A program made the translations under genes and the position numbers. A stretch of DNA of 35,027 bases from Pseudomonadota bacterium (lineage in GTDB: Bacteria; Desulfobacterota; WTBG01; CAIYCZ01; CAIRTM01), in NCBI GenBank assembly GCA_024640785.1, contig JAHEEI010000007.1:1-35027 (forward strand). The letters are read 5' to 3'. How positions within the stretch are numbered: the first letter of the stretch is position 1; every line of letters begins with the position of its first letter. The notes below the pieces were generated by a model. It saw only the letters and a list, made by a program, of their open reading frames with translations, did not search any database and had not been told where the DNA came from. This document shows, one piece after another, positions 530 through 28,983 of the stretch.

Positions 530-3250
530 ATGAAAAAAAATATTTTAGCTGTTTTACTTTCCTTAAGCCTTCTCTTATTCTTCACCTCGGTCACTTATTC
601 CTATACACCGGGCAGTGTAGAGGTAACCGTTAAAGACTATTACAGCGGTGCACTCCTTGAAGGCGCCGAGGTAGAAATGGAACCGGGCGGATATTCTGGA
701 ACAACTGCTCCGGACGGTACCATAACCTTTACCGGCATTACTCCATACAGAAATTATACTGTTACGGTTTCACTGGAAGGTTATATTGAGGGCCTTTACG
801 GCGAGGGCAAAACCGGTTTCATATGGGTTCAAACCGGTCAAACAACCCCGGTAACCCTCCCCGTTAAGAAAAAAGCATCAATTACGGGTCAGGTAACTTC
901 CGGCGGTGCACCGATTGACGGCGCATGGGTTATTTTGGTACACGATGCGATAATGGCTGGTGAAGGTGGTGGGGATGACCTGCACGTAGCAAGGGCCAAA
1001 ACCAATGCAAGCGGCGCTTATGAGCTTGCATCGATACCCGAGGGAGATTACAGCATCCGGGCAGTTGCCGAGGCATACTACCAGGCAAGCGACAATCTCA
1101 CTATCGGAGCAGATGAGTCAATAGCCAAGAATTTCTCGCTGACCCCGGGATCATCCTCATTGACTTATTCTATATTTGCTAGCAATAATATCTATGGAAA
1201 AACCATTTTGCTTTATGCTAATGGGAAACATCCGGGCACAGACTATTTAGATCTGTATATTGATGTAATCGATACCCCTCCTGGAGAGGATTTCCAATGG
1301 GGGGAATTATTCAATGGTTTTGTTTCTACGGGTCCAGGTAACTATAACGTTGCCATGATGCTTGTTGATCTTAATGGTGTCGGCGTAGAAGAATCATTGC
1401 CCCTAGAAATGCTCAACCATGCAACAGAGGCATATCCCACAATTATCCCGGGACCCTCTGAACTCCCTCTGCTCTATAACAGCACAGTTAATGCGATTAC
1501 TGCCGGAACAAGCAATGTCACTGCAGGTTCCGATGTCTATCTCAGGGGCTGGGGAAGGGACCAAAACCTTGATTCCCCTGAAACGTTCAATCCAGCTGCA
1601 CCCATGTTTGACATCTACGGAAATAAAAACGGAGACTGGAGCCAGTCGGCCTTTTCATTTGAATGGAGCCTGAGAGACGGATACGGAGTGGATCAGACTG
1701 CGCTATTAAACTCAACAAGTTCTGAGAATGTTCATTTTACCGTTCCAGCCGGTGCGCAAAATGGTGACACCTACATTGCCACACTTACGGTAACCGGCGA
1801 CAATGGACTGGCCGGCGACCCGGCAGAAGTTTCAGTAGTTGTAGCCGAAACGATTGGCAACTCCTCCTGCGGCCTCGTCATGTGTCATTCACCCATTGTT
1901 TCAACCTATCTAAGCACGACTCATTCAGCAAATAGTGTGAACTGCGAATCATGCCACGGCCCCGCCAGCCAGCACAATGGTACTTCAGATACTATTTCCA
2001 AAACCCACTGGCCGGGCAACTGCGGCCAGTGTCACGATCAGTTTGCACAGTGGCAGAAATCGCGCCACTCTGATCCGCTTGCTTTCGGCCATGCAGAGAT
2101 AGCTGGTGCACTACTCGGAACATGCTACAAATGTCATTATACCGAGGGGTTCATCGGTGCCGTGGAATCCGCAGAGGGTTTTCATGATTTCAAATACCCA
2201 TTATTCCCTGCTCCTGATGTTCCTAAGGACACCCCCAATGTCAGCTGTGATGTCTGCCATGATCCGCATGTACAAAGCGTTTCCAATCCGGTAGGGATCC
2301 GGACCGGGTCTGAGGAAAGTCTCTGCGGCACCTGTCATGAACAAAAATGGCAAAATGCCACCTATACGGCTACGGGCGATGAGATCGGAAATGCCTACCA
2401 CTGGACTGATTATACACAGTATCAGGGAACCGGGAACCCTCACCAGATGCCCAAGGGCTGCGTTACCTGCCACATGGCAAAAGACATAACAGACACGGAC
2501 GCCTACGGTGTACGCAAAGTCGGCGCACATAGCCTGAGGATGCGCGATGTTGGTCCTGACGGCGACCCCGGCACTGCTGATGATCTTCTGAACATCGCTA
2601 TCTGTCAGACGTGTCATTCAGGACTAACGACATTTGACCGCAACAGTACCAGGACAAGGATAAAAAACAAACTTGACACACTCGGCAATCTTCTAAAAGT
2701 AAACAATCACGATTACCTGCCACCGTTTCAGCCCGGAAAATGCGCCACTTGCCACCGGGGCGGTACTCTGCCGTTTATAAACGATACTGAGACAAAAACA
2801 CTCGAAAATGCATATCTGAACTATAAGTTGATACTGCATGACAGAAGCTTTGGGGTTCACAATCCCGGATACATCGAAAGACTCTTAGATGACAGTATTT
2901 CTGCGATATTAGATTCTGACAACGACGGCATCTTTGACCTTGAGGATAACTGCCCGGACATATGCAACCCAGAACAGCTTGATGCTGATAATGATGGCGA
3001 GGGCGATCTATGTGATACTACTCCGAAATGCGGTGGTGTTAGCTGCGGTATTCCTCAGCCTGCTTGCGAGACGGAGTGTATAGTAGATACTGACGGTGAT
3101 GGAATCCCAGACCTTGAAGATAATTGCCCGTTAAACTGTAATACTGAGCAGTCAGATTATGACGGTGACGGAGCAGGCGATGTGTGCGATACAGATGGAA
3201 AAGGCTGCAGCGACGGCTGCGGTTCACCCTCCTGTGAGCAGGAGTGCTAA
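530..3250 (+). CDS. Secreted multiheme c-type cytochrome with thrombospondin type 3 repeats
   Basis: A 906-residue exported protein, probably an extracytoplasmic or cell-surface electron carrier. Residues 1-24 form a signal peptide. Two carboxypeptidase-regulatory-like beta domains follow (about 28-110 and 115-205), then a large region with no recognised domain. The heme region spans about 447-742. It has eight CXXCH motifs (C472 to C738) preceded by one CX4CH (C447), a spacing known in cytochrome c3 hemes, so eight or nine hemes are likely. Residues 795-906 are two tandem units, each with DxDxDG-type calcium motifs followed by a Cys-rich tail. The start is fixed by AGGAGG at 517-522. The gene stands alone, with its own candidate promoter and a strong terminator. 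It carries 13 N-X-S/T sequons. The electron donor and acceptor are unknown. Confidence 0.9.
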   Translation: MKKNILAVLLSLSLLLFFTSVTYSYTPGSVEVTVKDYYSGALLEGAEVEMEPGGYSGTTAPDGTITFTGITPYRNYTVTVSLEGYIEGLYGEGKTGFIWVQTGQTTPVTLPVKKKASITGQVTSGGAPIDGAWVILVHDAIMAGEGGGDDLHVARAKTNASGAYELASIPEGDYSIRAVAEAYYQASDNLTIGADESIAKNFSLTPGSSSLTYSIFASNNIYGKTILLYANGKHPGTDYLDLYIDVIDTPPGEDFQWGELFNGFVSTGPGNYNVAMMLVDLNGVGVEESLPLEMLNHATEAYPTIIPGPSELPLLYNSTVNAITAGTSNVTAGSDVYLRGWGRDQNLDSPETFNPAAPMFDIYGNKNGDWSQSAFSFEWSLRDGYGVDQTALLNSTSSENVHFTVPAGAQNGDTYIATLTVTGDNGLAGDPAEVSVVVAETIGNSSCGLVMCHSPIVSTYLSTTHSANSVNCESCHGPASQHNGTSDTISKTHWPGNCGQCHDQFAQWQKSRHSDPLAFGHAEIAGALLGTCYKCHYTEGFIGAVESAEGFHDFKYPLFPAPDVPKDTPNVSCDVCHDPHVQSVSNPVGIRTGSEESLCGTCHEQKWQNATYTATGDEIGNAYHWTDYTQYQGTGNPHQMPKGCVTCHMAKDITDTDAYGVRKVGAHSLRMRDVGPDGDPGTADDLLNIAICQTCHSGLTTFDRNSTRTRIKNKLDTLGNLLKVNNHDYLPPFQPGKCATCHRGGTLPFINDTETKTLENAYLNYKLILHDRSFGVHNPGYIERLLDDSISAILDSDNDGIFDLEDNCPDICNPEQLDADNDGEGDLCDTTPKCGGVSCGIPQPACETECIVDTDGDGIPDLEDNCPLNCNTEQSDYDGDGAGDVCDTDGKGCSDGCGSPSCEQEC

Positions 3251-6697: not shown

Positions 6698-6741
6698 AAT
6701 AAAAAACGGAATAGTTATGATATTTAGTTTTAAATTTCCGT
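6698..6741 (-). terminator. Possible terminator after the ntrX-lpxC fusion gene
   Basis: On the minus strand ACGGAA (6741-6736, inside the last codons) pairs with TTCCGT (6711-6706) and runs into TTTTTATTTT. The 24-base loop contains a second small hairpin (ATTTA/TAAAT). It is a moderate candidate. Confidence 0.4.
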
Positions 6742-8916
6742 CAGGTCATGCATCATTCTTACAAAGGCAATATTGTCTGAGTGCCCGGTCATATTTGCAG
6801 TAATCTTACCTTTTAGGGGCTGACCCAACAGATAAAGATCTCCAATCATATCGAGTATTTTATGTCTAACAAACTCATTGGGAAATCTCAACTCAGTATT
6901 AACAATTTTTTCATCGTCAATTAATATAAAATTATTAAGCCGCCCTCCACTCGCTAGACCTACCTTATTTAATGCTTCAATATCCTTTAAAAACCCGAAA
7001 GTACGGGCAGGAGCTATCTCATTTTTAAATGTTTCAGGATCATCCATTACAAAAGTATATTCCTGTTTACCAACAGGTTTTGGATAATTGAGCTTATAAT
7101 GAATAGAAAACTTATCCGAAGGTTCAATGACAATATATTTTTGATTGCTCTTTACCTCACCAAGCACATGTTTTTTTGTAACAATTGCTTGTTCCACAGG
7201 TTCATCCTGAATCTCAATACAGGCTTCCTCAATGATATTACAGAAATCTGAGGCTGATCCGTCCATAATAGGCACTTCATTGTTTATTTTGATCATCAGA
7301 TTAGTGATTCCATATGCATGCAGAACAGCAAGCAGATGTTCGATCGTTTTTGCAGCAGAATTTGTATTTTCAAGGCTAGTTGCGTAATCAGTTGAATTCA
7401 CAAAGTCAATATGTGCAGGTATCGTCTCACTGTTTGCAATATTTCCAAATACTATACCGCTGCCGACTGGTAAAGGATTTAATATGAGTCCGGTTTTATC
7501 CCCAGAGTGAAGTCCCCTGCCGCTGAGTACCATGCTTTTCTTAATTGTCTTCTGAAAAATCTCTTCAGACCTGAAATCAGAAGCAAGAAGTATTCCGTAT
7601 TCCTTAATATGATTTATTAAGTTTTTTTCTTTAACATTTAATTTTTCAGCAGTTTTTTTGATATTTTTATCATTTTTACGCAGAAAAAATAACAAATAGT
7701 TTTTCCTCCAGGCAGCTTCAGCTTCTTGCATACTTTTGTATCCTTCATAATAACGGCCAAGATTAAACTGCCGCTCATCTCTTGCAGAAAAAGGGATATC
7801 ATGAGCAGATATATTCGTTGTGGGCACAGAAACTACCAGTTTTTCAATAAGGTTCTTCAGCTCTTTGACATTCCCCAACCAGTCATAATTAACCAATGTT
7901 TCAAGTGCATCATCATCAAAGATCTTTTCTCTAAATCCATATTCTTTGCAGAAAAACTCTAGGAAAAATTGCGAAAGCTCAGGAATATCAGCACGGCGCA
8001 TTCTAAGAGGTGGAACATTTATTGTGCGCGGGATTATCTTAAGCAATTTATCAGTTATTTTTCTGTCGCCTGAATTACGGTCTCTTTCAAGATCAATAAT
8101 TGTGGCAGCAATTATCTTTACCGAAGAGTTACTTTTTTTCATATTCACAAGCTCTTCAGCCAATTTATTCTGGGTTTCATGAGAAAGAAAATCGATTGAA
8201 TCCAGAAAAACGGTTGAATTGGAAGGATCCTTAAGAACTCCATATTTGCGATTCGAATATTTTTTTACTTTTTTTGAGCCGAAAAGTTCTAGATCAAGAT
8301 CCTCTGGTGAGTAAACTGCGCAGTTCAATTTTCTAAAATTTCCTGAATCATTCTTTTTATAATTATGGATGAGACGTGCTATTAGCTCCTTTCCTGTACC
8401 AATCTCACCTTGAAGAAAAATATTTTCAGAGGAAGATGAGACGTTAGGTATTAATTCCTTAATATGTAAAAGTGAGGGCGTTTCACCGAATAGTATCAGT
8501 TCAGCTTCAACAGGAGGAGAAGCATCTACAATCTGTCCGTTTGTGATTCTATGTTTTTCCTTGATTCTTTTAATAACCCCAATAACGCTTTCTATATCAA
8601 ACGGCTTCTCAAGAAAATCAAATGCGCCAAGCTTTACCGCCTGTACAGCAGTTTTAACTGTGCCATGACCGGTCATCATCACTACATTAATACTGGAATC
8701 ATAATCTTTTATCAGTTTTAAAGTTTCTATCCCATCCATTTCTGGCAGCCAGATATCTAGGAATATTGAATCAACATGCTGAGATTTAATTATTTCCAAA
8801 GCTTTTATTCCGTCAGAAGCTGTCAGAACAATATAGCCTTCATCCTCAAGACTGCCTTTTAAAGAATCTAAAATAGCCTTTTCATCATCTACTAGAAGTA
8901 TTACTTTAGTCTTCAT
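6730..8916 (-). CDS. lpxC: NtrX-like response regulator fused to LpxC (UDP-3-O-acyl-GlcNAc deacetylase)
   Basis: One 728-residue frame joins a regulator to the committed enzyme of lipid A synthesis. Residues 1-125 are a receiver domain with D10/D11, phospho-acceptor D54, T82 and K104. Residues about 140-375 resemble a sigma-54 AAA+ domain. Walker A (170-177, GEIGTGKE) is kept, but the GAFTGA loop is replaced by KKVKKYSNR and Walker B reads FLDS instead of FLDE. Residues about 395-445 hold a Fis-type helix-turn-helix. Residues 453-728 are a full-length LpxC with E526/H527, H685/K686/D689 and H712, so the zinc site and catalytic residues are intact. The gene lies 55 bases after the ntrY-like kinase on the same strand. 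AAAGG precedes the ATG. The fusion is seen directly; regulation of the enzyme by phosphorylation is inference. Confidence 0.93.
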   Translation of the reverse strand: MKTKVILLVDDEKAILDSLKGSLEDEGYIVLTASDGIKALEIIKSQHVDSIFLDIWLPEMDGIETLKLIKDYDSSINVVMMTGHGTVKTAVQAVKLGAFDFLEKPFDIESVIGVIKRIKEKHRITNGQIVDASPPVEAELILFGETPSLLHIKELIPNVSSSSENIFLQGEIGTGKELIARLIHNYKKNDSGNFRKLNCAVYSPEDLDLELFGSKKVKKYSNRKYGVLKDPSNSTVFLDSIDFLSHETQNKLAEELVNMKKSNSSVKIIAATIIDLERDRNSGDRKITDKLLKIIPRTINVPPLRMRRADIPELSQFFLEFFCKEYGFREKIFDDDALETLVNYDWLGNVKELKNLIEKLVVSVPTTNISAHDIPFSARDERQFNLGRYYEGYKSMQEAEAAWRKNYLLFFLRKNDKNIKKTAEKLNVKEKNLINHIKEYGILLASDFRSEEIFQKTIKKSMVLSGRGLHSGDKTGLILNPLPVGSGIVFGNIANSETIPAHIDFVNSTDYATSLENTNSAAKTIEHLLAVLHAYGITNLMIKINNEVPIMDGSASDFCNIIEEACIEIQDEPVEQAIVTKKHVLGEVKSNQKYIVIEPSDKFSIHYKLNYPKPVGKQEYTFVMDDPETFKNEIAPARTFGFLKDIEALNKVGLASGGRLNNFILIDDEKIVNTELRFPNEFVRHKILDMIGDLYLLGQPLKGKITANMTGHSDNIAFVRMMHDLTEI

Positions 8917-8971
8917 CTATCCTTTACCTTTCATTAAGAGAATCTGCTTTATTAGATACCCTCAAAAGTAT

Positions 8972-11233
8972 TTATATTGCTGCACCTTCTTTAATCGATG
9001 ACAAGTCTCCGACTGGAAGCTCTATCACAAAGCAGGTACCCTTGCCTTCATTATCACGCACTCTAATATAACCGTTATGATCAGCAATAATATTATTCAC
9101 AATAGCCAGACCAAGTCCTGTGCCGCCTTTTTTCGTAGAAAAATAAGGCTCAAATATCTTTTGTCTGATTTCTTTAGATATTCCAAGCCCGGTATCAGAC
9201 ACTTCAATTGTCACTAACTCTAAATTTTTATCATACTTGGTCTTGACAGTTATGTTCCTATCATTTTCTATAGAGCTTACCGCGTTGTCAAGAAGATTAA
9301 TAATCACTCTCTTAATCTGATCACGGTCAAAATTGAAACTTATATTTTCCTGTTCAATTACCAGGTCAATATTAATATCCTTATGCGCTTCCCGATACAG
9401 AGAAAGGGTCTCGGTAAGAAGCAAATTCAAGTCATTTAAAACAGGGTTAGTAGCAGGCATTCTCGCAAAAGTTGAGAATTCATTGATTAAAATTTTTAAT
9501 TCATCCACTTGGGTAATTATGGTTTTAGTACATTCATCAAATATCTGCTGATCTTCCACAATCTGATTTTTAAACTTCTTTCTCAGCCGCTGGGCAGAAA
9601 GCTTAATTGGAGTTAGAGGGTTTTTGACCTCATGAGCAACGCGTCGCGCAACTTCTTTCCAGGCATATGCTCTTTGGGCCTGCTGAATCTGGGTCAGATC
9701 CTCCGCAACAATAACCAGACCCATATAATTTTCATCTCTATCAAAAAGCATTCTTGACCGGGTAAAAAGAAAGATTGTTTTATGCGAGAAAGAAAGGGTC
9801 AGCTGCTTTTCCATAGCAGTAAAACTGAACTTATTTATTTCATCAATATAATCACTTAAAATATTTAAAGGTTCCTTGTCAAAAACATCCTTATAAGGGC
9901 GTAACAAAACATCATCAATACGGATTTTGAACATTTTCTCAGCATATTTATTAAAAGTGGTGATCAACCCATTATTATCTACTGATACAACTACAGCCGC
10001 AACATTATCAAGGAGTATCTCCATATTTAATCTTCTGTGGTCAAGCTCAGTGATTGTATCTTTAAGGTCATTAGTAGTGGATTCAACTTTTCCCTGACTA
10101 ACTCTAAGATCACTGGTCATCTTGTTAAAAGAATCAATTAAACTTCCGATTTCATCATCTGACGCGGGATCAATTTTAAAATCAAGATTACCCTGGGCAA
10201 CCTGCTGAGTCGCATTTGCAAGTGAACTGATGGGAACAGATATAACCTTAGAAAGATGAAAACCAAACCAGGTCGCAGAAAATATGATAAGCAGGGTTAC
10301 AACAGAAAGGAGTATCACATACATAAATTTAATATCAAATTTACTCAACTTAAGATCCTTGTACTCCATAAACGCCCTTTTTATTGTATCCATCTTGGAG
10401 ACAAGGCTCTGATTTACATAATAATTTACAACAACAGCTCCCACGACATCCTTTTTATTCCAGGTTGACCGAACAGGCACAACGCCTCTGATAATATCAC
10501 TTTTACCAAATGAGTTAACATAGGTGTTTTCCTCACCGTCAAAAGCCAGTTGAACAATATGGGAATCAGGGCTTATGAAACTCTTATCAGGAATCAAGGG
10601 GTTCATTACTTTAAGCAGTTCCTCTCGCTGAGAGGAGAAAACTTCTACCACACCAAGGTTATATTCAACCTGTTTTTCATTCACAAATTTACGTAGTTCA
10701 ACAAGGTTCTCTTCATTTAATAATTTATTATCTGTTATCTTATTACTAATCTGCCGCGCATAATGTAAAGCATTTGATTCAGAGTTTTTATAATAGACCC
10801 TCGAAACTTTTAAAGCTTCTTCCAGAGAAGACTCCACCTTAAAACTGAACCAGTTCTCTATCGTATTAGTTATGAAACCAATTGAAACCCAGAAAAGAAT
10901 CAGAGTTGGAACAAGAGAAAGACCCACAAAAGCAACTACAAGTTTTGTTCTTAATTTTGAACCAAGAACACCCCTTCTTCTTTCAAAAAATAGTTTAACA
11001 ATATTTCTTACTACCAAAAAAACCAAAAGAAGAAGCAAAATAGCATTTGTATTTACCAGTACCAGCACAAGCCAGTTTTGAGGGATAAACTGAGTACTTC
11101 CCTGATTACCGATTAAATATACAAGTAAAGACGTCAGCATAAACGCAAAAAGTATAGCAAATAAAATAACTATGCCTTCCCGCTTACGTCTTATCCTTTC
11201 ATCCACAGGCAATAAAAAAGTTTTTTTCTTCAT
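8972..11233 (-). CDS. ntrY: NtrY-like transmembrane sensor histidine kinase
   Basis: A 753-residue inner-membrane kinase with the NtrY architecture. It has three N-terminal membrane segments (about 20-42, 54-80 and 98-125), a periplasmic sensor region (about 126-300) and a fourth membrane segment (303-330). HAMP (330-382), PAS (about 400-515), the HisKA segment with phospho-acceptor H534 in AHEVKNP, and the HATPase follow. The HATPase has N650 in LLDNA, then DTGLG and GGTGLGLA (679-710). Its partner is almost certainly the receiver-LpxC fusion 55 bases downstream. In other bacteria NtrYX pairs govern nitrogen, redox or envelope responses; the signal here is unknown. The gene diverges from rpmH. 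Confidence 0.92.
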   Translation of the reverse strand: MKKKTFLLPVDERIRRKREGIVILFAILFAFMLTSLLVYLIGNQGSTQFIPQNWLVLVLVNTNAILLLLLVFLVVRNIVKLFFERRRGVLGSKLRTKLVVAFVGLSLVPTLILFWVSIGFITNTIENWFSFKVESSLEEALKVSRVYYKNSESNALHYARQISNKITDNKLLNEENLVELRKFVNEKQVEYNLGVVEVFSSQREELLKVMNPLIPDKSFISPDSHIVQLAFDGEENTYVNSFGKSDIIRGVVPVRSTWNKKDVVGAVVVNYYVNQSLVSKMDTIKRAFMEYKDLKLSKFDIKFMYVILLSVVTLLIIFSATWFGFHLSKVISVPISSLANATQQVAQGNLDFKIDPASDDEIGSLIDSFNKMTSDLRVSQGKVESTTNDLKDTITELDHRRLNMEILLDNVAAVVVSVDNNGLITTFNKYAEKMFKIRIDDVLLRPYKDVFDKEPLNILSDYIDEINKFSFTAMEKQLTLSFSHKTIFLFTRSRMLFDRDENYMGLVIVAEDLTQIQQAQRAYAWKEVARRVAHEVKNPLTPIKLSAQRLRKKFKNQIVEDQQIFDECTKTIITQVDELKILINEFSTFARMPATNPVLNDLNLLLTETLSLYREAHKDINIDLVIEQENISFNFDRDQIKRVIINLLDNAVSSIENDRNITVKTKYDKNLELVTIEVSDTGLGISKEIRQKIFEPYFSTKKGGTGLGLAIVNNIIADHNGYIRVRDNEGKGTCFVIELPVGDLSSIKEGAAI

Positions 11234-11423
11234 AATCTAACTTTTATTTTAAGTTAAGTATTGACCAGTAATAATTGCTTTAAATTATATATAATAACAA
11301 GGATATTTCAATAAACTTTATCAAAATCTATATCTGTTGCGATTAAGCAGTTTAAAAAAATAAAAGTTCAACAAAGTAGATAATAACTAGCATTGGTAAT
11401 TAAATTACATTATTCTAAACATC

Positions 11424-16224: not shown

Positions 16225-17082
16225 ATGAAAATATCTGTTATAATTCCGGTCTATAACGAAGCTCAAATAGTCGGATCTTTTATAAAAGCGGTTCTTAAAA
16301 AAATCCCCGACGCTGAAATCATAGTAGTAAATGATGGTTCTGATGACAATACAGCAGATGTTGCTTCACAATCTGGAGCAAAAGTTATATCACATCCGTA
16401 TAATATTGGTAATGGTGCCGCAGTTAAAACTGGAATAAGAAATGCTGTTGGCGAAAAATTACTGCTGATGGACGGCGATGGACAGCACAACCCTGACGAC
16501 ATTCCAGCACTCCTTGATGCTTCAAATAATTATGATATGGCAGTTGGCGCAAGGTCCCCTAAATCACATGCTAACCTGTTAAGGAGATTTGCAAATTTTA
16601 TCTATAATATTCTAGCAACCTATATCACCGGAATCAGAGTAAAAGACCTGACCTCAGGTTTCCGGGTATTAAATCGGGAGACAGCATCAAAATATCTTTA
16701 TCTTATCCCTAACACTTTTTCATACCCAACAACAATAACACTTGCATATTTAAGAAGCGGAAGGTCTGTAAAATATGTACCAATAAATGCTGCTAAAAGG
16801 ACCGGCAAAAGTAAGATAAAGCCGATAAAAGACGGAACAAGATTCCTGATAATAATGATAAAAATTGCGACACTCTATTCTCCTTTAAGTATATTTATGC
16901 CCACCAGCATTTTCTTTTTTATGCTTGGCATGATAAATTATGCATATACTTATTTATCTGTCCACAGGTTCACAAACATGTCCGCCCTATTTCTTATAGC
17001 CTCTGTCATAATCTTTATGATGGGACTCATAAGCGAGCAGATCACACAGGCTAGATATGACCGCATTGAAAACGGTGGTTAG
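16225..17082 (+). CDS. Family 2 glycosyltransferase, dolichol/polyprenyl-phosphate-sugar synthase-like
   Basis: A 285-residue GT-A enzyme resembling DPM1-type polyprenyl-phosphate mannosyl or glucosyl transferases. The N-terminal MKISVIIPVYNEA, the VVNDGSDDNT nucleotide-sugar site, MDGDGQH (82-88, the DxD metal site) and the DLTSGFRVLNR acceptor-side segment are all present. Two C-terminal membrane helices (about 222-245 and 252-275) anchor it. It would load a sugar onto a lipid phosphate at the cytosolic face. The STT3-like gene starts 14 bases after its stop, so the two are probably co-translated and work in one pathway. The sugar cannot be told from sequence. Confidence 0.9.
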   Translation: MKISVIIPVYNEAQIVGSFIKAVLKKIPDAEIIVVNDGSDDNTADVASQSGAKVISHPYNIGNGAAVKTGIRNAVGEKLLLMDGDGQHNPDDIPALLDASNNYDMAVGARSPKSHANLLRRFANFIYNILATYITGIRVKDLTSGFRVLNRETASKYLYLIPNTFSYPTTITLAYLRSGRSVKYVPINAAKRTGKSKIKPIKDGTRFLIIMIKIATLYSPLSIFMPTSIFFFMLGMINYAYTYLSVHRFTNMSALFLIASVIIFMMGLISEQITQARYDRIENGG

Positions 17083-17096
17083 AAAGACTTTTTAAA

Positions 17097-19328
17097 GTGA
17101 GAAATAAAAAGAAACATCGTTTAAAAAATTCCTCCATAAAGAAAGCACCAAATTTAAGTGAATATAATCCAAGCATAAAGACCTCTGCATTTATAAATTT
17201 TGCAAATCAGCTCCATACAAAACTTTCTCCTTGGAAAAAATATCTTGAAATTATTTTTCTTGTACTAATTATTGTGTCTGGAATAATGTTTCGACTGGAG
17301 GATCTCAACACTTGGGAACAGAACAGACAACTCGCTTTTTTTAATAACGAACCCATACACACTACTTTTGATGCATGGTATTATTTAAGTCTTTCAAAAG
17401 ATATTCTGGAAAACAGCTACCATAAAATTGATGAAAAACGCGGCATACCAAACAGCCCTGAAAGGCCATCCCCTCCTCCGCTGATTTCTGTTGTAGCCGC
17501 TTTGATAGCTAAATACACAAAAACCTCTCTCAGCTGGGTTGGTGCTCTACTGCCGGCAATTCTCGGGCCACTGCTTGCAATACCAATATTTTATATCGGT
17601 CGTTTTTTCGGTGGTTCCATAGCAGGATTAACAGCTGCTTTGGTCAGCCTCCTATATCCCTATTATATTTACAGAAGCAATATCGGTCGCTTTGATACGG
17701 ACTGCATGAATGTTGTCTTTGCAACATCAGCTGTATACCTTTTTCTCCGTTTTGCAGTTTGTCAGAATATAAAAAGGTACATATATTTTCTTTTTGGTTT
17801 AATTGTTTTCTTTTTGTTTTTGTGGTGGTGGGACCAGACTCCAGCAGTTGTTGGCGCGATTACTTTTCCACCGCTTGTGATAGCTCTATTATTCTATTAC
17901 CGAGTCCCTAAAAAAGAACTTATAACCTTCTACAGCGTACTCGCAATTGTTACTATTCTTTTCCTTGCTTTTTACGGAACAGATATACCGATAAAGGCTT
18001 TCAAGTCCATCGTTTCTCAATTTAGATATATTTCAAAACAGACCTTTAATGAATTTCCAAATATCGGTATTACCATAAGCGAGCAGACAAAACCTTCACT
18101 TGATATGATAGTTTCTTACACTTCATTAAATATCCCATCCTTCATCTTTTCAATATCTGGCATCATCCTTCTTTTTATTAAAAAAACAAAAGAAAGCCTC
18201 TTTTTAATATCACTGATAATTCTTTCAGTACTGGCATTTACATATGCAAATCGTTTTATAATTTTTTTTATACCTGTGCTAGCAATTGGAACAGGTTATT
18301 CCATTATGACCCTATGGTCATTTAGAAAGAAGTTTATCGCTTTATACTTGATTTGTCCTATCATCTTAACGCTATTGCTTTTACCCCTTTACAATTCTAA
18401 TACATCATATACTCAATGGCCAAAAGAAAATGGTATAACCGTAGAAGCAATGGATTATGTCAAAAATAATACCCCTGATAATTCGATCTTATGGGCATGG
18501 TGGGATCATGGATATGCAATAACATACTGGGCTAGACGCGCCACCATTAATGACGGTTCAATACACGGCGGTGAACGTACTGTCTATAATGCTATACCAT
18601 ATTCAACAGACAGCTACAGGCTCTCAGCAAATTTCATGCATTTTTATGTAACACATGGAATAGATGGGATAAGAAAGTTTTATAATGCTGTCGGCAATTC
18701 TTCAAAAGGACTTAAAAACTTAAAAGAAATTCTTAATGCTGGGCCGGCTAATTCAAAAGAAATAATAGCCAAACTGAATCTTACTGAATCGTCTGAACTT
18801 GAAAGTACTGAAGACTGGCTTGAATTTTTCTTTCCTGAGAACAAAAGACCTGTTTACATCCTGATTGACAGTCTAATGACCAAAATAGCGTACTGGTGGT
18901 TTTGGTTTGGCACCTGGGACATAGACAAACAGGAAGGAATCCATCCTTCATTTAACCTTTATTATAATATAAACAGATCAAACAACACTATTTCCAATAA
19001 TTCAGGTTTAAAAATTAATGCAAAAAACGGAAATTTATACAGCAGCGATCTTGGAAAATACCAGTTATCATACATTTCTCAAATGACAAACAGAAAACTT
19101 ATTAAAAAAGAGTTTGATACAAACAGCAGTCTCGGCTTTGAATATAACGAGTCATACAGATTTGGAGCACTGTGCGACAACAACATATCTAAATCAGTAT
19201 TTAACAAACTATTTATCAGACATAGCTACCAGGAAAAATATTTCAAGCCAATTCGTGTGCGGGCTCCGTACTACCAGATCTGGGAAATAAAAGGAGATAC
19301 TTATAGAAGTTCAAAAATATCAAATTAA
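17097..19328 (+). CDS. STT3/PglB-like oligosaccharyltransferase
   Basis: A 743-residue polytopic membrane protein with the marks of the catalytic subunit of N-glycosylation. D92 lies in the first external-loop motif (TTFDAWYYL). A second acidic motif is GRFDTD (D200, D202). The sequon-binding motif is WWDHG (468-472), a variant of WWDYG. A DSLMTKI segment (M594, I597) resembles the MI motif of bacterial PglB. About a dozen membrane helices precede the soluble C-terminal domain. It would transfer lipid-linked glycan to asparagine on the periplasmic face. The start is a GTG; the ribosome site is weak, consistent with coupling to the GT2 gene. Archaeal-type AglB is an alternative label. Confidence 0.9.
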   Translation: MRNKKKHRLKNSSIKKAPNLSEYNPSIKTSAFINFANQLHTKLSPWKKYLEIIFLVLIIVSGIMFRLEDLNTWEQNRQLAFFNNEPIHTTFDAWYYLSLSKDILENSYHKIDEKRGIPNSPERPSPPPLISVVAALIAKYTKTSLSWVGALLPAILGPLLAIPIFYIGRFFGGSIAGLTAALVSLLYPYYIYRSNIGRFDTDCMNVVFATSAVYLFLRFAVCQNIKRYIYFLFGLIVFFLFLWWWDQTPAVVGAITFPPLVIALLFYYRVPKKELITFYSVLAIVTILFLAFYGTDIPIKAFKSIVSQFRYISKQTFNEFPNIGITISEQTKPSLDMIVSYTSLNIPSFIFSISGIILLFIKKTKESLFLISLIILSVLAFTYANRFIIFFIPVLAIGTGYSIMTLWSFRKKFIALYLICPIILTLLLLPLYNSNTSYTQWPKENGITVEAMDYVKNNTPDNSILWAWWDHGYAITYWARRATINDGSIHGGERTVYNAIPYSTDSYRLSANFMHFYVTHGIDGIRKFYNAVGNSSKGLKNLKEILNAGPANSKEIIAKLNLTESSELESTEDWLEFFFPENKRPVYILIDSLMTKIAYWWFWFGTWDIDKQEGIHPSFNLYYNINRSNNTISNNSGLKINAKNGNLYSSDLGKYQLSYISQMTNRKLIKKEFDTNSSLGFEYNESYRFGALCDNNISKSVFNKLFIRHSYQEKYFKPIRVRAPYYQIWEIKGDTYRSSKISN

Positions 19329-21221: not shown

Positions 21222-22109
21222 ATGAAAAATACCCTGCCGATCCTAATACTAAGAAGCATGCGTCCAAAACAATGGACAAAGAATATTATTCTTTTTGCAC
21301 CGCTTATTTTTTCACAGAACATAACCAATAAACAGCTGGCCATATACTCTTTTATTTCCTTTATTGTCTTCTGCATCCTCTCAGGCAGTGTCTATATCCT
21401 AAACGACCTTATTGATATCAAGCAGGACAAGGTTCATCCTTTAAAATCAAAAAGACCGCTTGCCTCAGGCCGTTTAAGACCGATATATGCCGTTATAACA
21501 TTTCTGGTACTGCTGGCCCTTTCCGTATATATTTCTTTAACCTATCTAAACAATTTGTTTATCTTAGTTGCCGGATCGTATCTTATCCTTCAGATTGCGT
21601 ATTCTACCATACTAAAACATATTGTAATCATTGATGTTTTCTCAATCGCAGCAGGCTTTCTGCTAAGAGTTATCGCTGGTGCAGAAGCAATAGAGGTAAC
21701 ATTTTCAACCTGGCTTTTCTTCTGCACAATTCTTCTGGCACTTTTTCTGGCGTTAAGTAAAAGACGTCATGAAATCATACTACTTGATGAAAGGGCAATA
21801 AATCACAGAAAAATTCTTTTTGAATACAGTGCAGATCTTCTTGACCAGATGATCTCAATAGTTACAACTACCACGCTTATTGCATATATTCTCTACACTA
21901 TCTCTCCTGAAACAGTTGCCAGGTTTGGAACAGACAATCTTAAATATACGGTTCCGTTTGTATTATATGGCATATTTCGTTATCTTTACCTACTGCACCA
22001 GAAAAATGAAGGCGGCAGCCCCGAAAGAGTACTCTTGAATGACATGCCTATACTCACAACAGTCATACTTTACTGTTTGACTGTCTGCTATATCCTTTAC
22101 AGAGCTTAA
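21222..22109 (+). CDS. UbiA-family prenyltransferase, decaprenyl-phosphate phosphoribosyltransferase-like
   Basis: A 295-residue membrane enzyme with about eight to nine helices. The first Asp-rich motif is NDLIDIKQDKVHP, followed by KSKRPLASG. The second region is DVFSIAAGFLLRVIAGA. N-terminal MRPKQWTKN and this motif set match the branch containing decaprenyl-phosphate 5-phosphoribosyltransferase (Rv3806c-like) rather than quinone or heme branches. Such an enzyme would join PRPP to a polyprenyl phosphate, the first step towards polyprenyl-phospho-arabinose. No epimerase genes (DprE1/DprE2) are in the window. The gap 22110-22326 is AT-rich and holds nothing I recognise. Confidence 0.85.
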   Translation: MKNTLPILILRSMRPKQWTKNIILFAPLIFSQNITNKQLAIYSFISFIVFCILSGSVYILNDLIDIKQDKVHPLKSKRPLASGRLRPIYAVITFLVLLALSVYISLTYLNNLFILVAGSYLILQIAYSTILKHIVIIDVFSIAAGFLLRVIAGAEAIEVTFSTWLFFCTILLALFLALSKRRHEIILLDERAINHRKILFEYSADLLDQMISIVTTTTLIAYILYTISPETVARFGTDNLKYTVPFVLYGIFRYLYLLHQKNEGGSPERVLLNDMPILTTVILYCLTVCYILYRA

Positions 22110-23832: not shown

Positions 23833-24804
23833 CTAAATCCCGGTTATGGATTCATTCTCCAAATCATAGAGAACTTCATCTTCATCATTAAATAAAAGCA
23901 GAAACTCCCGTTTTTCTTTGATCTCCCCAATTACTGCTGCTTTAATACGCTTTTTTGTAAACTCAGCAATAATTTGCTCTGTATTGGCTTTATCAGAGGT
24001 TAGAATAAAACCATAACTTAAAAATGCTTTGAGCCAGTCCATAAAAATAAAACCGTCCGGTTTGGGTATCCTGTTTAAATTTATGATTGCACCTTTTTTA
24101 GAGAACTCAAGAAGTAAAGCGAGAGTACCAAGAAGACCGCCGTTACTAACATCTTTTGCAGTTTCACACAAACCTTTCTCAGCAATGATCGGCAAAATTT
24201 CAAGTCTTTCAAGAACCTGATCCGTAGTTTTGCCGGAATTTGAATCCCAGCTTATAACAGGTTTGCACTGATAGCCCTGCCCTTCCAGATCAACAGTAAA
24301 AATAATGTCCTGCCCAACCCGTGCGTTATCACTCAATAAAAGTTTTTTTGCCTTACCCAGTATTGAGACAGAAAGCGATGCTTCCTTTGTATTAGGATGT
24401 AAATGCCCGCCAACCATTGGAACCCTGAATTTTTCACAACCTTTTTTTATTCCGCGTACAAGTTCAGGATAATAACTGTTATCAGGAACACCAATAACAT
24501 TGATAAGAGCAATAGGTCTGCCGCCCATTGCATAAATATCATTTACATTTACCATGATTGAAGCCTTACCCGCATTGTATGGATTTGCCTCAATTAAGTC
24601 TGACCATATACCATCAACAGCTAAAAGCAAATACTCATCACCAGACTTTATTACCGCGGCATCTTCACCGAAATCCGCAATAACATCACCAAAGTTTTTA
24701 ACAGACTGGAGTTCATCGGTTATCAGATGAATATTTCTTTTCCGTGTTATCCCCGGATAACTCTTTATCTCATTAATAATATCTTTTAAGCTGTTTGCTT
24801 TCAT
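23833..24804 (-). CDS. AIR-synthase-related protein (Sll0787/Nit1C type)
   Basis: A 323-residue PurM-like ATP-binding protein. It has FGEDAAVI, LLLAVDGIWSDL, the long MVNVNDIYAMGGRPIALINV segment and VGGHLHPN, all typical of the AIR synthase/ThiL/SelD fold and closest in my recollection to the Sll0787 and MSMEG_0567 C-terminal family. It lacks the N-terminal Sec/Cys loop of SelD. A phosphorylated intermediate from ATP is expected, but the substrate is unknown. It follows the GNAT gene by 16 bases. In MSMEG_0567 the GNAT and AIR-synthase parts are one protein; here they are separate genes. It is the last gene of the ABC-radical SAM set. Confidence 0.85.
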   Translation of the reverse strand: MKANSLKDIINEIKSYPGITRKRNIHLITDELQSVKNFGDVIADFGEDAAVIKSGDEYLLLAVDGIWSDLIEANPYNAGKASIMVNVNDIYAMGGRPIALINVIGVPDNSYYPELVRGIKKGCEKFRVPMVGGHLHPNTKEASLSVSILGKAKKLLLSDNARVGQDIIFTVDLEGQGYQCKPVISWDSNSGKTTDQVLERLEILPIIAEKGLCETAKDVSNGGLLGTLALLLEFSKKGAIINLNRIPKPDGFIFMDWLKAFLSYGFILTSDKANTEQIIAEFTKKRIKAAVIGEIKEKREFLLLFNDEDEVLYDLENESITGI

Positions 24805-24820
24805 GCTCTATCCTGTAAAA

Positions 24821-25252
24821 TTAGAGTTGCGCCTGCATTAATTGATGCATCTTTCCATGGTGCAAATAAATTTCTCCGACTGGTTTCCATTTCAAGTTTA
24901 TAAAAAACGGGACATTGTCAGCCTGAATTATTGCTTTGAATACTCTTGCATTACTATTTTTTACAATTTCAACCGCCTTTAACACCAAACATTTACCAGC
25001 GTTACCACGATATCTTTTTTTTACAGCCAGTCTTCCTCCGACCCAGACATCTTCCGTTTCTCTGTAAACTCTAACTGTTCCGATAATCTTATCATTAATA
25101 AATGCAGCAATATGAACAGCATCTTTATCATGGTCGTCAAGATCTGAATCACAAAAAAGTTTCTGTTCATCAACAAAAACCTGTTTTCTAATTCTAAAAC
25201 AGGCCGCTTGCTCTTCATCATTTATGATCTTTCTGCAAGTTATCCCGGACAT
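24821..25252 (-). CDS. GNAT N-acetyltransferase, MSMEG_0567/Sll0786 type
   Basis: A 143-residue GNAT-fold acyltransferase. FRIRKQVFVDEQKLF, DKDAVHIAAF, GTVRVYRE, WVGGRLAVKKRYRGN (the acetyl-CoA pyrophosphate loop) and FKAIIQADNVPFF match the small 'nitrogen starvation' GNAT family of Nit1C clusters. It is cytosolic with unknown acceptor. It lies between the radical SAM gene (157 bases upstream, with a palindrome in the gap) and the AIR-synthase-like gene (16 bases downstream), the same partners as in cyanobacterial sll0786-0787 and mycobacterial MSMEG_0567-0568. Confidence 0.85.
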   Translation of the reverse strand: MSGITCRKIINDEEQAACFRIRKQVFVDEQKLFCDSDLDDHDKDAVHIAAFINDKIIGTVRVYRETEDVWVGGRLAVKKRYRGNAGKCLVLKAVEIVKNSNARVFKAIIQADNVPFFINLKWKPVGEIYLHHGKMHQLMQAQL

Positions 25253-25361
25253 TATATTTAATAGGTAAATTTAAAAGTTCACAAAAAATCTGCCACTAAA
25301 AGAGATCTTAAAATTATACAATATCTTTAAATCATAAACGGTACTTTTATATTTCAAATTA

Positions 25362-25384
25362 TTAAAACACTTTAAGTGTTTTAA
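25362..25384. repeat. 23-bp palindrome between radical SAM and GNAT genes
   Basis: TTAAAACACTT (25362-25372) and AAGTGTTTTAA (25374-25384) are perfect 11-bp inverted arms around one base. The element follows the radical SAM stop by 25 bases. It could be an operator, an mRNA processing hairpin or a weak terminator, since no good T-tract follows on the minus strand. Confidence 0.6.
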
Positions 25385-25408
25385 ATATATTACCCATTTC
25401 TCTCTGCC

Positions 25409-26476
25409 CTATTCAAACTCAGTAATTGACGAACAGACTCCGCAGCGAACACATCCGGCCTTTGACTTTTTTGAAGAAAGACCATTTTGTTTAATAACTG
25501 CGGCTACTTTTCGGTAAACTATATTCATCTCCTCTGCAGAAGGAGGTCTTAAACTTTCCAGACGTGTGCCGGGAACAGGTCGTAATGGGAGCACATATGG
25601 ATATACACCTAGTTCAGACATCAGTTTCGCACTTTCTATTATTTCATCTAAGCTATCACCGATGCCGACTATTAAAAAACTGCTGACCTGGTTTCTGCCA
25701 AAAACAGAAACTGATTTTTTCCAGGCATTAATATAAAAATCAATACCAAGGCTTGCTTTAGCCGGTGCAATCTTTTTCAACACGGTTTCCGAACAGGACT
25801 CAACATGTATACCGATAGTATCGGCGCCCGCGGTTTTAATCCTTTCATATACATTTTCATCCTCTTCAGGGCAAATTTGAGCATGAACAGCCAGAGATGA
25901 TAATTCTTTAATTGACTTCACACAATCAACAAGATGTCTTGTTCCGTCATGAAAATTTATCCTTTTACCGGTAGTCAGAGTCACATGACAAACTTGATCA
26001 AGTTCTTTTGCCTTTAAAGCGGCATAACCAAGATCCTCTGGGGTTTTTTCTTTTACGGTGCTATTATTTTTAAGTGATAATTCTACCCCACAAAAAACAC
26101 ACTCACAGCCCTGGTCAAAATATAAACAGCTCTGATAAATTGTTGAAGCAAAACAATCTTTGCCATGGATAAGCGCAATTTTTTCAAGTTTTATACCTTT
26201 ACTTGTTTCCAGGTCATAGCAATCAGGTCTTTTCGGAAATGAAACTTCACAAAGCTCACGACTGTCCTTTGTTAAAAAAAAAGTTTTTCCATCCTCTATG
26301 ATGGTGTAGGGAGATTCATCAACAAACCAGCTGTTAGTAGGTACACTTATATACTGTCCGTTAATTATAATCACCTGACCTTCTGAAGGGCCAGCTCCGC
26401 CTTTCCTGCCAGAGAATTTTAAAGGTACTTTCACCCCAAGGCTCTGGAGCTTTATTCTTAATTCTTTGAAATTCAT
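25409..26476 (-). CDS. Radical SAM enzyme, MSMEG_0568 (Nit1C NitD) type
   Basis: A 355-residue TIM-barrel radical SAM protein of the biotin-synthase-like group. N-terminal residues 21-90 form a family-specific domain including FSGRKGGAGPSEG. The cluster region is C117-x6-C124-x-C126-x2-C129, so the usual CX3CX2C is absent and a CX8CX2C (C117/C126/C129) spacing is likely. TTGKRI, HAQICPEE, GIHVES and PLRPVPGT are further radical SAM/biotin-synthase-like segments. The C-terminus has CVRCGVC (342-348), possibly binding an auxiliary cluster. The order ABC transporter, radical SAM, GNAT, AIR synthase suggests a small-molecule modification pathway. The reaction is unknown. Confidence 0.87.
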   Translation of the reverse strand: MNFKELRIKLQSLGVKVPLKFSGRKGGAGPSEGQVIIINGQYISVPTNSWFVDESPYTIIEDGKTFFLTKDSRELCEVSFPKRPDCYDLETSKGIKLEKIALIHGKDCFASTIYQSCLYFDQGCECVFCGVELSLKNNSTVKEKTPEDLGYAALKAKELDQVCHVTLTTGKRINFHDGTRHLVDCVKSIKELSSLAVHAQICPEEDENVYERIKTAGADTIGIHVESCSETVLKKIAPAKASLGIDFYINAWKKSVSVFGRNQVSSFLIVGIGDSLDEIIESAKLMSELGVYPYVLPLRPVPGTRLESLRPPSAEEMNIVYRKVAAVIKQNGLSSKKSKAGCVRCGVCSSITEFE

Positions 26477-26505
26477 TTTTATTAGTTTTGACCCTGTGAG
26501 TGTTT

Positions 26506-27243
26506 TTACTGGTTTTCCCTGTTCAGGAAGGTAATTATTTCAGTACGGTAACGGTTAAACTCATCCTCCGTTACATTTCTAGGAAAAGGCATTTCAACTT
26601 GAAGAGACAGTAATATCTTACCGGGTCTTTTTGATAGCCCGACTATACTGTCGCTTAAATATATGGCTTCATCAATATTATGGGTAACAAAAAGAATGGT
26701 TTTTTTTGATTCAGACCAGATCTCATATAAAAACTTCTGCATCATGGATCGGGTCTGGGAATCCAGCGCACCGAAAGGTTCATCCATTAAGATAATAGAA
26801 GGATTATTTATAAGGGTGCGCGCTATAGCCACACGTTGTTTCATGCCTCCTGAAAGTTCTTTTGGGTACTTATTCTCAAACCCCTTAAGCTCGAAACGTT
26901 CAATATAGCTTAAAGCTTTATCCACTCTTTTACTTACAGCTACACCCTGTATCTCAGGGCCTAGACTTATATTGTCAAGAACCGTCATCCAGGGAAAAAG
27001 CGCATATTCCTGGAAAACAAAACCGGCATTCAGGCTCCCATTTTTTACAACTCTGACACTTCCTTTGGTGGCGTTATCAAGGCCTGAAATTATTCTTAGC
27101 AGAGTGGACTTCCCGCAGCCGCTGGGACCGATAACAGACACAAACTGACCGGCTTCAATCTTAAGCGACACATCAGAAAGCGCACATATCTCACCACCTT
27201 TATTGTCAGTAAATGTTTTTGTCAGATTATCAATCTCAAGCAT
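26506..27243 (-). CDS. ABC transporter ATPase (SsuB/TauB/NrtD-like)
   Basis: A 245-residue nucleotide-binding subunit. Walker A is GPSGCGKST (39-47), the signature LSGGMKQR, Walker B SIILMDEPFGALD and the switch histidine VTHN. The sequence is of the nitrate/sulfonate/taurine importer class. It follows the permease by 14 bases and precedes the radical SAM gene by 29 bases, placing all of them in one likely transcript. Confidence 0.93.
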   Translation of the reverse strand: MLEIDNLTKTFTDNKGGEICALSDVSLKIEAGQFVSVIGPSGCGKSTLLRIISGLDNATKGSVRVVKNGSLNAGFVFQEYALFPWMTVLDNISLGPEIQGVAVSKRVDKALSYIERFELKGFENKYPKELSGGMKQRVAIARTLINNPSIILMDEPFGALDSQTRSMMQKFLYEIWSESKKTILFVTHNIDEAIYLSDSIVGLSKRPGKILLSLQVEMPFPRNVTEDEFNRYRTEIITFLNRENQ

Positions 27244-27257
27244 ATTTCTTCTCTACG

Positions 27258-28028
27258 CTACTCTCTCCATTTAAGCGCACGATTTTCAAGCAACCTCAGC
27301 AAAAGGTCAAGCGCAAAACCAATTAACCCAATTGTTATCATGCCAGCAAGAATCATATCCGGACGCTGAATATCACGTGCAGTCATAATCATATAACCGA
27401 CCCCGTATCCGCTTTTCACACCTGTAAATTCCGCGGCTACAAGAGTCATCCATCCGATTCCCATTCCAATACGAAGCCCGGTGTAAACAGAGGGAAAAGA
27501 GCCTGGAAGGAGTACTTTATAAAATATATCACGTTCACCTGCCCCAAGTGTCTTGGCAGCATCAATTAGAACCTTATCCACGGAAAGAACCCCGGAAATG
27601 GTACTTATAACAATGGGAAAAAAACAGCCCAGAAAAATAATAAATACTGCTGATTTTAATCCAATACCAAACCAAAGGATCGCAAGAGGTATCCATGCAA
27701 GCGGCGGAATCGGGCGGATCATTTCAATGAATGGGGTGCATATTTCTCTTAAACGTTTTGACCGACCAAGTATTATCCCAAGGGGAATGGCTGAAATAGA
27801 AGCAATTAGAAAACCGAAAAGCACCCGAACTAGACTATAGACACAGTGATAGAAAAGGATCTTCTGTTGAGGAAGTCCCGTAATAATCAACTCTTTTAAA
27901 GCAATAATGATAAGAAACGGTGAGGAAATTTTATTTGCCGGTAATATTTCAAATGAAGATAGAAGCTGCCACACAATAAGTGCGCATAAAGGGATAAGTA
28001 TCTTCTCTCTATTTTGATATAAGCTCAT
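27258..28028 (-). CDS. ABC transporter permease (SsuC/TauC-like)
   Basis: A 256-residue inner-membrane permease with about six helices. The EAA loop region is DAAKTLGAGERDIFYKVLLP, typical of the nitrate/sulfonate/taurine family. GWMTLVAAEFTGVKSGYGVGYMI is another family hallmark. It lies between the binding protein (13 bases) and ATPase genes, so it forms the channel of that importer. Confidence 0.92.
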   Translation of the reverse strand: MSLYQNREKILIPLCALIVWQLLSSFEILPANKISSPFLIIIALKELIITGLPQQKILFYHCVYSLVRVLFGFLIASISAIPLGIILGRSKRLREICTPFIEMIRPIPPLAWIPLAILWFGIGLKSAVFIIFLGCFFPIVISTISGVLSVDKVLIDAAKTLGAGERDIFYKVLLPGSFPSVYTGLRIGMGIGWMTLVAAEFTGVKSGYGVGYMIMTARDIQRPDMILAGMITIGLIGFALDLLLRLLENRALKWRE

Positions 28029-28041
28029 TTAATATTAAAGA

Positions 28042-28983
28042 CTAATAATTAAAAACATCTTGTATAAATCTGGGACTCTCCTGTGGTCTTATATATCTTA
28101 ATTCATCCAAAAAATCAACGAACTGAACTGCTTTATCATGATCAATTATAGAATCATATTTGATTCTGGAAACGGCTTTCCCAACAATATCCGCATCCAT
28201 TCCTGTATATTTTATACCGATTGCAATTGCGTCTTTATGGTTATTTTTAATATAGACGCAAGCCCTGTTATGAACTTCTTTAATTTTTGAAAGTTTATCC
28301 GGATTTTTTCTCAAAAATTGTTCACCCGCGACAGCTACACAACAGGGATGATTCTTCCAGATATCCGATGAAGAAATTAGAACTCTGCTGGCACCCTCCA
28401 CCTCAGCTTGTGATGGATACGGTTCCCAAGCAATAAAAGCGTCTATGCTTTTCTGTTTTAATGCCTGAATCATCTCTGGCGGCTTTAAAACTATAATCCT
28501 GATGTAATCAAAAGACACTCCTGCTTTCATTAGGGCCTTTCTCAACAGAAAATCCTGCATAGTGGCATGGCCGGGGATAGCAATTGTCCTGCCAGTCAGG
28601 TCTGAAACTGATTTAATCTTAGAATCTGTTTTGACAACAATGGAAGAGCCCTCAAGATTAGACTGTGATATAAATTTAATATCAGCAACTCTGTTTAAAT
28701 AAGCCGCCGTAGCAGGCGCCTGCCCCACATAACCAAGGTCAAGTGCACCCGCAGCAAAAGCGCTCATTTCTTCCGGCCCGGCTTTAAATATCCCGGAAAC
28801 CTCTATTTTAAGCCCAGCTTCTTCAAAGAAACCTTTTTCAAGCGAGACAAACAAAGGAAGATGATGAAGATCATTCTGCAGATATCCAACGCGAATTGCA
28901 CTGTCTTCATTTGGATATTTACAGGAAAATAATAATAAGACAGCCAGACAGCTGAGGATTAAACGCTTAAAAAACATAATCAA
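28042..28983 (-). CDS. ABC transporter substrate-binding lipoprotein (SsuA/NMT1-like)
   Basis: A 313-residue binding protein. An N-terminal signal with lipobox LLFSC (cysteine at about residue 21) indicates a lipid-anchored periplasmic protein. RVGYLQNDLHHLPLFVSLEKGFFEEAGL, GALDLGYVGQAPATAAYL and IDAFIAWEPYPSQAE are typical of the nitrate/sulfonate/thiamine-precursor binding family. The ligand cannot be read from sequence. It is the first gene of the set ending in the AIR-synthase-like gene. AAGG lies seven bases before the ATG; a second ATG two codons in is possible. Confidence 0.9.
   Translation of the reverse strand: MIMFFKRLILSCLAVLLLFSCKYPNEDSAIRVGYLQNDLHHLPLFVSLEKGFFEEAGLKIEVSGIFKAGPEEMSAFAAGALDLGYVGQAPATAAYLNRVADIKFISQSNLEGSSIVVKTDSKIKSVSDLTGRTIAIPGHATMQDFLLRKALMKAGVSFDYIRIIVLKPPEMIQALKQKSIDAFIAWEPYPSQAEVEGASRVLISSSDIWKNHPCCVAVAGEQFLRKNPDKLSKIKEVHNRACVYIKNNHKDAIAIGIKYTGMDADIVGKAVSRIKYDSIIDHDKAVQFVDFLDELRYIRPQESPRFIQDVFNY

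Follow-up and report, generated by a model that had tools for sequence, protein, structure and literature searches.

The window (the whole stretch of DNA that was analysed, 35,027 nucleotides) contains a gene whose product consists, from the N- to the C-terminus, of a receiver, a degenerate NtrX-type AAA+ domain, the remnant of a helix-turn-helix (HTH) and the deacetylase LpxC (Table 1). A Pfam scan of the protein recovered Response_reg (residues 6-113, 108 bits), Sigma54_activat (143-281, 76 bits), AAA_lid_14 (305-382, 69 bits) and LpxC (455-722, 282 bits against a cut-off of 27), all of them over the cut-off. The initial annotation of this DNA had reported one frame joining a response regulator and LpxC; its coordinates were right and its domains are confirmed by Pfam, and the minus strand, which it had left unstated, can be added. 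The gene ntrY lies immediately upstream on the same strand, and the sequence AAAGGATAG before the ATG of the fusion gene is a plausible ribosome-binding sequence. A plasmid search with the fusion protein returned partial matches only, with no record covering 80% of the protein. Elsewhere in the window, a likely multihaem cytochrome is encoded at 530-3250 on the plus strand; it is secreted, contains numerous CxxCH haem motifs and has acidic repeats of the calcium-binding type towards its C-terminus. An STT3-like multi-spanning protein (17097-19328, plus strand) has a glycosyltransferase (16225-17082) and a UbiA-like prenyltransferase (21222-22109) nearby, and the substrate-binding protein, permease and ATPase of an ABC importer are found together with radical-SAM-like, GNAT and AIR-synthase-like proteins at 23833-28983 on the minus strand.

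Table 1. Features of the fusion locus with their positions in the window.
Feature	Position	Strand	Basis or remark
NtrX-LpxC fusion gene	6730..8916	-	single open frame, 728 aa, ATG start; Pfam domains
LpxC deacetylase domain, residues 455-722	6751..7554	-	PF03331 282 bits, TIGR00325 256 bits
LpxC catalytic His712	6781..6783	-	Aquifex LpxC alignment; invariant
LpxC His685-Lys686-x-x-Asp689, zinc ligands and Lys	6850..6864	-	Aquifex LpxC alignment; invariant
LpxC catalytic Glu526 and zinc ligand His527	7336..7341	-	Aquifex LpxC alignment; invariant
Fis-like helix-turn-helix remnant, about residues 399-444	7585..7722	-	alignment with HTH of canonical activators; NtrX model spans 6-442
AAA+ lid, residues 305-382	7771..8004	-	PF25601
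Degenerate sigma54-type AAA+ core, residues 143-304	8005..8490	-	PF00158 76 bits and motif comparison
Receiver domain, residues 6-113	8578..8901	-	PF00072 108 bits
Asp54 codon, predicted phosphoacceptor	8755..8757	-	position from translation
ntrY-fusion junction, 55 bp	8917..8971	-	no terminator-like site; AAAGGATAG ahead of ATG
NtrY-type sensor histidine kinase, 753 aa, predicted partner kinase	8972..11233	-	Pfam NtrY_N, HAMP, PAS, HisKA, HATPase
Promoter-like TTGAAA-16-TATAAT upstream of ntrY	11284..11311	-	consensus match only; such matches in the region not above shuffles

The LpxC domain of the window protein was used to search 395 genomes of the phylum, many of which are fragmented; matches of at least 230 bits were taken as fused-type LpxC, families were counted from group codes, and genomes and families were hand-counted from the table. 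Fused-type LpxC was found in 90 of the 395 genomes, about a quarter, representing ~25 families, in frames of 382-1423 amino acids. It is separated by a clean score split from other LpxC, which reach at most 203 bits among the matches listed and are mostly encoded by frames of about 290-370 amino acids. A receiver is located ahead of LpxC in all 82 fused loci inspected. Short forms make up 61 of these and consist of the receiver, a linker of 25-71 residues and LpxC, without AAA+ and HTH; the other form, long and built like the window protein, is present in 21 loci, and four long forms have no recognisable HTH. The nearest relatives of the window protein come from records titled mostly Thermodesulfobacteriota or Deltaproteobacteria metagenome-assembled genomes. 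Among 247 genomes of the phylum to which a Holophagales record (L060, Acidobacteria) belongs, six also have a close LpxC form, in frames of 439-492 amino acids; the receiver was confirmed in L060, the only one checked of the six. The search for further receiver-LpxC proteins that had been suggested at the outset thus yielded 82 loci, and a sequencing or assembly error joining two genes, which had been named as a possible objection, is excluded by the conservation of the join across ~25 families. The same recurrence in 82 loci rules out a chance origin of the frame. The fusion is a widespread clade and not a curiosity of one genome.

Some loci of this set deviate in detail. In one genome (G006), the fusion frame (L093, 8814-10703) starts inside the receiver, unlike that of its close relative L091, which could reflect a frameshift, an assembly error or a real loss. 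Two very long fusions (G106, 1354 amino acids; G071, 934 amino acids) were rejected as over-extended frames that ntrY overlaps in another frame; Pfam shows a receiver and LpxC only. No Pfam domain and no kinase were seen in the extra N-terminus of a third long frame (G190, 1067 amino acids).

D10, D11, D54, T82 and K104 are all located in the receiver of the window protein, which thus possesses every phosphorylation residue that the initial annotation had ascribed to it, and D10, D11, D54 and K104 are invariant in 81 of 81 fusions. Within the clade of the window protein (11 sequences), mean pairwise identity amounts to 73% for the receiver and 74% for LpxC, as opposed to 36% for the AAA+ core, indicating that receiver and enzyme are under similar constraint; the lid (65%) and the HTH (60%) lie in between. 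The receiver is kept even in the fusions that lack AAA+ and HTH.

The best full-length model for the part ahead of LpxC is that of NtrX (NF051870), which covers residues 6-442 with 267.6 bits. This score is below the curated equivalog cut-off of 600 bits, and the protein is therefore filed as NtrX-derived and not as NtrX. The NtrX order of receiver, AAA+ and Fis-type HTH is present at full length, and the closest solved structure from receiver to HTH is 5m7n, a 454-amino acid "nitrogen assimilation regulatory protein", which we take to be Brucella NtrX. The earlier description as the remnant of an NtrC-type core is therefore correct with respect to the remnant, and the type has to be changed to NtrX. 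A motif comparison revealed that the GAFTGA loop and the Walker-B Glu are gone in all 21 long fusions, including the window protein, and that the GK of Walker A is kept in all 21. Seven canonical activators encoded in the window's genome possess Walker A, the Walker-B Glu and GAFTGA. An intact sigma54 activator was considered and ruled out by the loss of GAFTGA and the Walker-B Glu; judged by these motifs, the sigma54 function of the fusion is lost.

The C-terminal LpxC domain scores 256 bits with TIGR00325 against a cut-off of 187, and its residues E526/H527, H685/K686/D689 and H712 align with the equivalent residues of the Aquifex LpxC of known structure. The enzyme thus possesses all the catalytic residues proposed for it (E526, H527, H685, D689, H712), and its catalytic residues are invariant in 82 of 82 fusions. 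No FabZ hotdog domain was detected after LpxC in the Pfam scan; the protein stops six residues past the LpxC match. Six LpxC positions (V463, G476, K543, C559, Y695 and T710) are fixed in the fusions but not in stand-alone LpxC, and the position of K543 is occupied by Glu in 27 of 30 other LpxC. These six residues are a candidate contact surface for the receiver, which is a lead only.

LpxA and LpxB are present in the window's genome on another contig. The second, stand-alone lpxC that would have weakened the initial proposal was not found in this genome (2.84 Mb, 305 contigs, 92% complete, 5.7% contaminated), where the fusion is the only LpxC detected; at these values the absence is not absolute. 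Exactly one LpxC match was obtained in 85 of the 90 fusion genomes. In three genomes (G062, G218 and G261), the fused lpxC is accompanied by a stand-alone copy, and the fusion is therefore not always the sole LpxC. Another genome (G312) has two LpxC matches, one of them truncated at the end of a contig. G394 contains two distinct genes for a fused receiver-LpxC (L124, L125) and has no stand-alone LpxC match.

In 31 of 82 loci, ntrY immediately precedes the fusion gene, and 26 of 29 fusion genomes without an adjacent ntrY encode one near-full-length NtrY elsewhere. The HE[VI][KR]NP phospho-acceptor H-box is kept in all 60 NtrY homologs examined. No NtrX-like regulator was found beside the orphan ntrY in 19 loci examined, some of them in short stretches. 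Three fusion genomes (G394, G248 and G254) have no clear NtrY, so that another kinase may serve there. The initial annotation had spoken of a two-component system as input in general terms; this can be made more specific, since the regulator is NtrX-derived and NtrY is likely its kinase.

Phylogenetic analyses and gene order point to the origin of the fusion. The LpxC domains of the fusions fall into a single clade that excludes 17 stand-alone LpxC from the phylum (100% SH-aLRT). A single clade is likewise formed by the N-terminal parts of 20 long fusions; it groups with NtrX and NtrX-like regulators, and this group is split from seven further activators encoded in the window's genome (100% SH-aLRT). 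ntrY follows lpxC on the same strand in nine of 18 stand-alone lpxC loci examined, mostly with ntrX as the next gene and often with a DUF4390 gene in between. The NtrX proteins at the stand-alone lpxC loci mostly have GAFTGA, with the variants GSFTGA and GAFAGA in two and L199 without assignment in this tally. The presence of NtrX was assessed with an ortholog query; the NCBI model alone matches all NtrC-family paralogs. An NtrX ortholog of 53-57% identity (503-563 bits) is encoded in the tested genomes with stand-alone LpxC, with the exception of G016, which is 76% complete. No NtrX ortholog was found in 15 tested fusion genomes, in which the best match has at most 47% identity (at most 413 bits), near the paralog background. 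In two genomes with a common genus code (G062 and G025), the neighbours at the ntrY locus are alike (a DUF4390-type gene, ntrY, NAD kinase), and a stand-alone lpxC is present there in G062 and missing in G025.

Further observations concern the neighbourhood of ntrY. The order lpxC-(DUF4390)-ntrY-ntrX, which occurs in half of the examined loci with stand-alone lpxC (L185-L202), may give a general hint of what NtrYX senses or regulates. In some loci, ntrY adjoins waaA or lpxK. Three genomes (G261, G062 and G218) have a stand-alone lpxC that adjoins an ntrY without ntrX (L203, L204 and L224) and a short receiver-LpxC elsewhere (L126, L128 and L127); they might be replacement intermediates or mixed bins.

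The former arrangement would have consisted of lpxC, ntrY and ntrX as neighbouring genes and would have been replaced by the fusion, whose N-terminal 450 residues would be a former NtrX with decaying transcriptional machinery. On the LpxC tree, long and short forms switch with three to four changes, which is compatible with either order of appearance; collinearity with NtrX favours the long form as the first one, with repeated loss afterwards. It seems likely that the lpxC-ntrY-ntrX set collapsed, that the separate transcription factor was lost and, in most lineages, its AAA+ and DNA-binding parts as well, and that NtrY now switches the activity of the sole LpxC by phosphorylating the fused receiver.

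The reading that we regard as best, and as probable, is that the lpxC/ntrYX regulatory circuit has collapsed into one polypeptide, in which phosphorylation by NtrY would set LpxC output directly and not by way of lpxC expression. Jointly with this explanation, the fusion is probably the working LpxC of the organism and would be regulated like a response regulator with enzymatic output. NtrY would sense an envelope signal and autophosphorylate, and the phosphate would pass to Asp54 of the fusion; the phosphorylated receiver would then change the dimer or the contact to LpxC, thereby altering lipid A synthesis at the committed step. We infer the phosphotransfer from NtrY to the fusion, the effect on LpxC and the sign of this effect. 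Direct control by a covalent receiver had already been suggested in the initial annotation, and the sequences support it, because the phosphorylation residues are invariant, the receiver is as conserved as the enzyme, NtrY is retained and no stand-alone NtrX ortholog was found. Structure predictions for the window fusion and for one short form yielded good receivers and, in the long form, a good AAA+ domain. In the same predictions, LpxC was modelled with low confidence, since the alignments were shallow with only 9-10 sequences, and no usable receiver-LpxC interface was obtained. In R. sphaeroides, lpxC mRNA rises about nine-fold and LPS increases when NtrYX is lost, and in C. crescentus, too, lpxC transcription is lowered by NtrYX (PMC7240162, PMC12444477). 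An NtrX site has not been found ahead of the R. sphaeroides lpxC gene, so that the link appears to be indirect there. Since NtrYX lowers lpxC expression in alphaproteobacteria, the NtrY signal would, by analogy, most likely restrain LpxC. In vitro, LapB reduces the activity of E. coli LpxC by about 80%, and the P. aeruginosa enzyme is activated by MurA (PMC12444477), showing that direct binding can set LpxC activity.

Other roles of the receiver have to be weighed against direct control. It could be the passive leftover of an accidental fusion, kept for folding, with a constitutive LpxC; fused parts do drift in these proteins, as the clearly decaying AAA+ domain demonstrates. However, the receiver is not drifting (73% versus 36% identity for AAA+), its four phosphorylation residues are invariant in 81 proteins and it is retained in fusions devoid of AAA+ and HTH, which makes this explanation very improbable. 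The receiver might instead position the enzyme: docking on NtrY would bring LpxC to the inner membrane and phosphorylation would release it. NtrY-type kinases are membrane-bound, which fits this idea, but contacts between receivers and kinases are usually transient. There is a precedent in N. meningitidis, where LpxC is recruited to the inner membrane by Ght, which raises LPS synthesis (PMC12444477); on balance, such docking appears improbable.

The long forms could also still be DNA-binding regulators and act as trigger enzymes, with substrate or lipid A status feeding back via the HTH. The conservation of the lid and HTH far above that of the AAA+ core in the window's clade (65% and 60% versus 36%) and the Walker A kept in 21 of 21 long forms are consistent with this, but the same 21 proteins have lost GAFTGA and the Walker-B Glu. 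Moreover, since 61 of 82 fusions have no AAA+ and four long forms no recognisable HTH, DNA binding is not a shared function, and we consider a trigger enzyme improbable. Finally, the receiver might set the amount of LpxC, in that phosphorylation exposes the protein to FtsH, Lon or Clp or hides it from them, similar to a covalent LapB. The level of E. coli LpxC is indeed set by proteolysis via the adaptor LapB (PMC12444477), and the C-termini of the sampled fusions are short, so that an internal signal would have to replace the C-terminal degron. However, no degron or adaptor was identified and nothing specific was seen in the sequences; control of the amount is rather unlikely.

LpxC commits the cell to lipid A synthesis and is an antibacterial target, and the sequence of the protein described here suggests a likely answer to the question of how LpxC may be regulated in bacteria other than the best-studied ones. 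Only two genes, those of the kinase and of the receiver-enzyme, have to be expressed for a direct test. The repeated occurrence of the lpxC-ntrY-ntrX order might explain the effects of NtrYX on the envelope of distant bacteria, and separate genes, full fusion and bare receiver-enzyme form a series in which a transcription factor would become the control domain of an enzyme. No description of a receiver-LpxC fusion was found in the open-access literature; the architecture may well be listed in domain-architecture databases without study. In a 2025 review on lipid A regulation, the terms "fusion" and "response regulator" are absent, and a receiver-LpxC fusion is likewise not mentioned where it deals with the LpxC of other organisms.

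Several known systems resemble the fusion in part. Response regulators with enzymatic output exist, such as CheB, PleD-type GGDEF and HD-GYP regulators, which likewise combine a phosphorylatable receiver with an enzyme; their outputs, however, are signalling enzymes, whereas the enzyme here is a committed one of an envelope pathway and usually the only copy of the cell. LpxC is also part of a larger polypeptide in the LpxC-FabZ fusion of Bacteroidetes, Chlorobi and Verrucomicrobia, but there the partner is a C-terminal metabolic enzyme and not an N-terminal signalling domain (PMC3087551). Post-translational control of LpxC is known from LapB/FtsH in E. coli and MurA in P. aeruginosa, of which LapB and MurA bind directly; in contrast to the fusion, these systems use a separate regulator protein and have no kinase-receiver input (PMC12444477). 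The alphaproteobacterial NtrYX system has the kinase family and the order of receiver, AAA+ and Fis HTH in common with the fusion system, but its NtrX is a transcription factor in its own right, whose regulon comprises dozens of genes, whereas NtrX and LpxC are one polypeptide here. In Desulfovibrio vulgaris, another sulfate reducer, lpxC is the single mapped target of the response regulator DVU2934, which is encoded with the histidine kinase DVU2931 and the HD-GYP regulator DVU2933; there, control is transcriptional and exerted through separate genes (PMC3333781).
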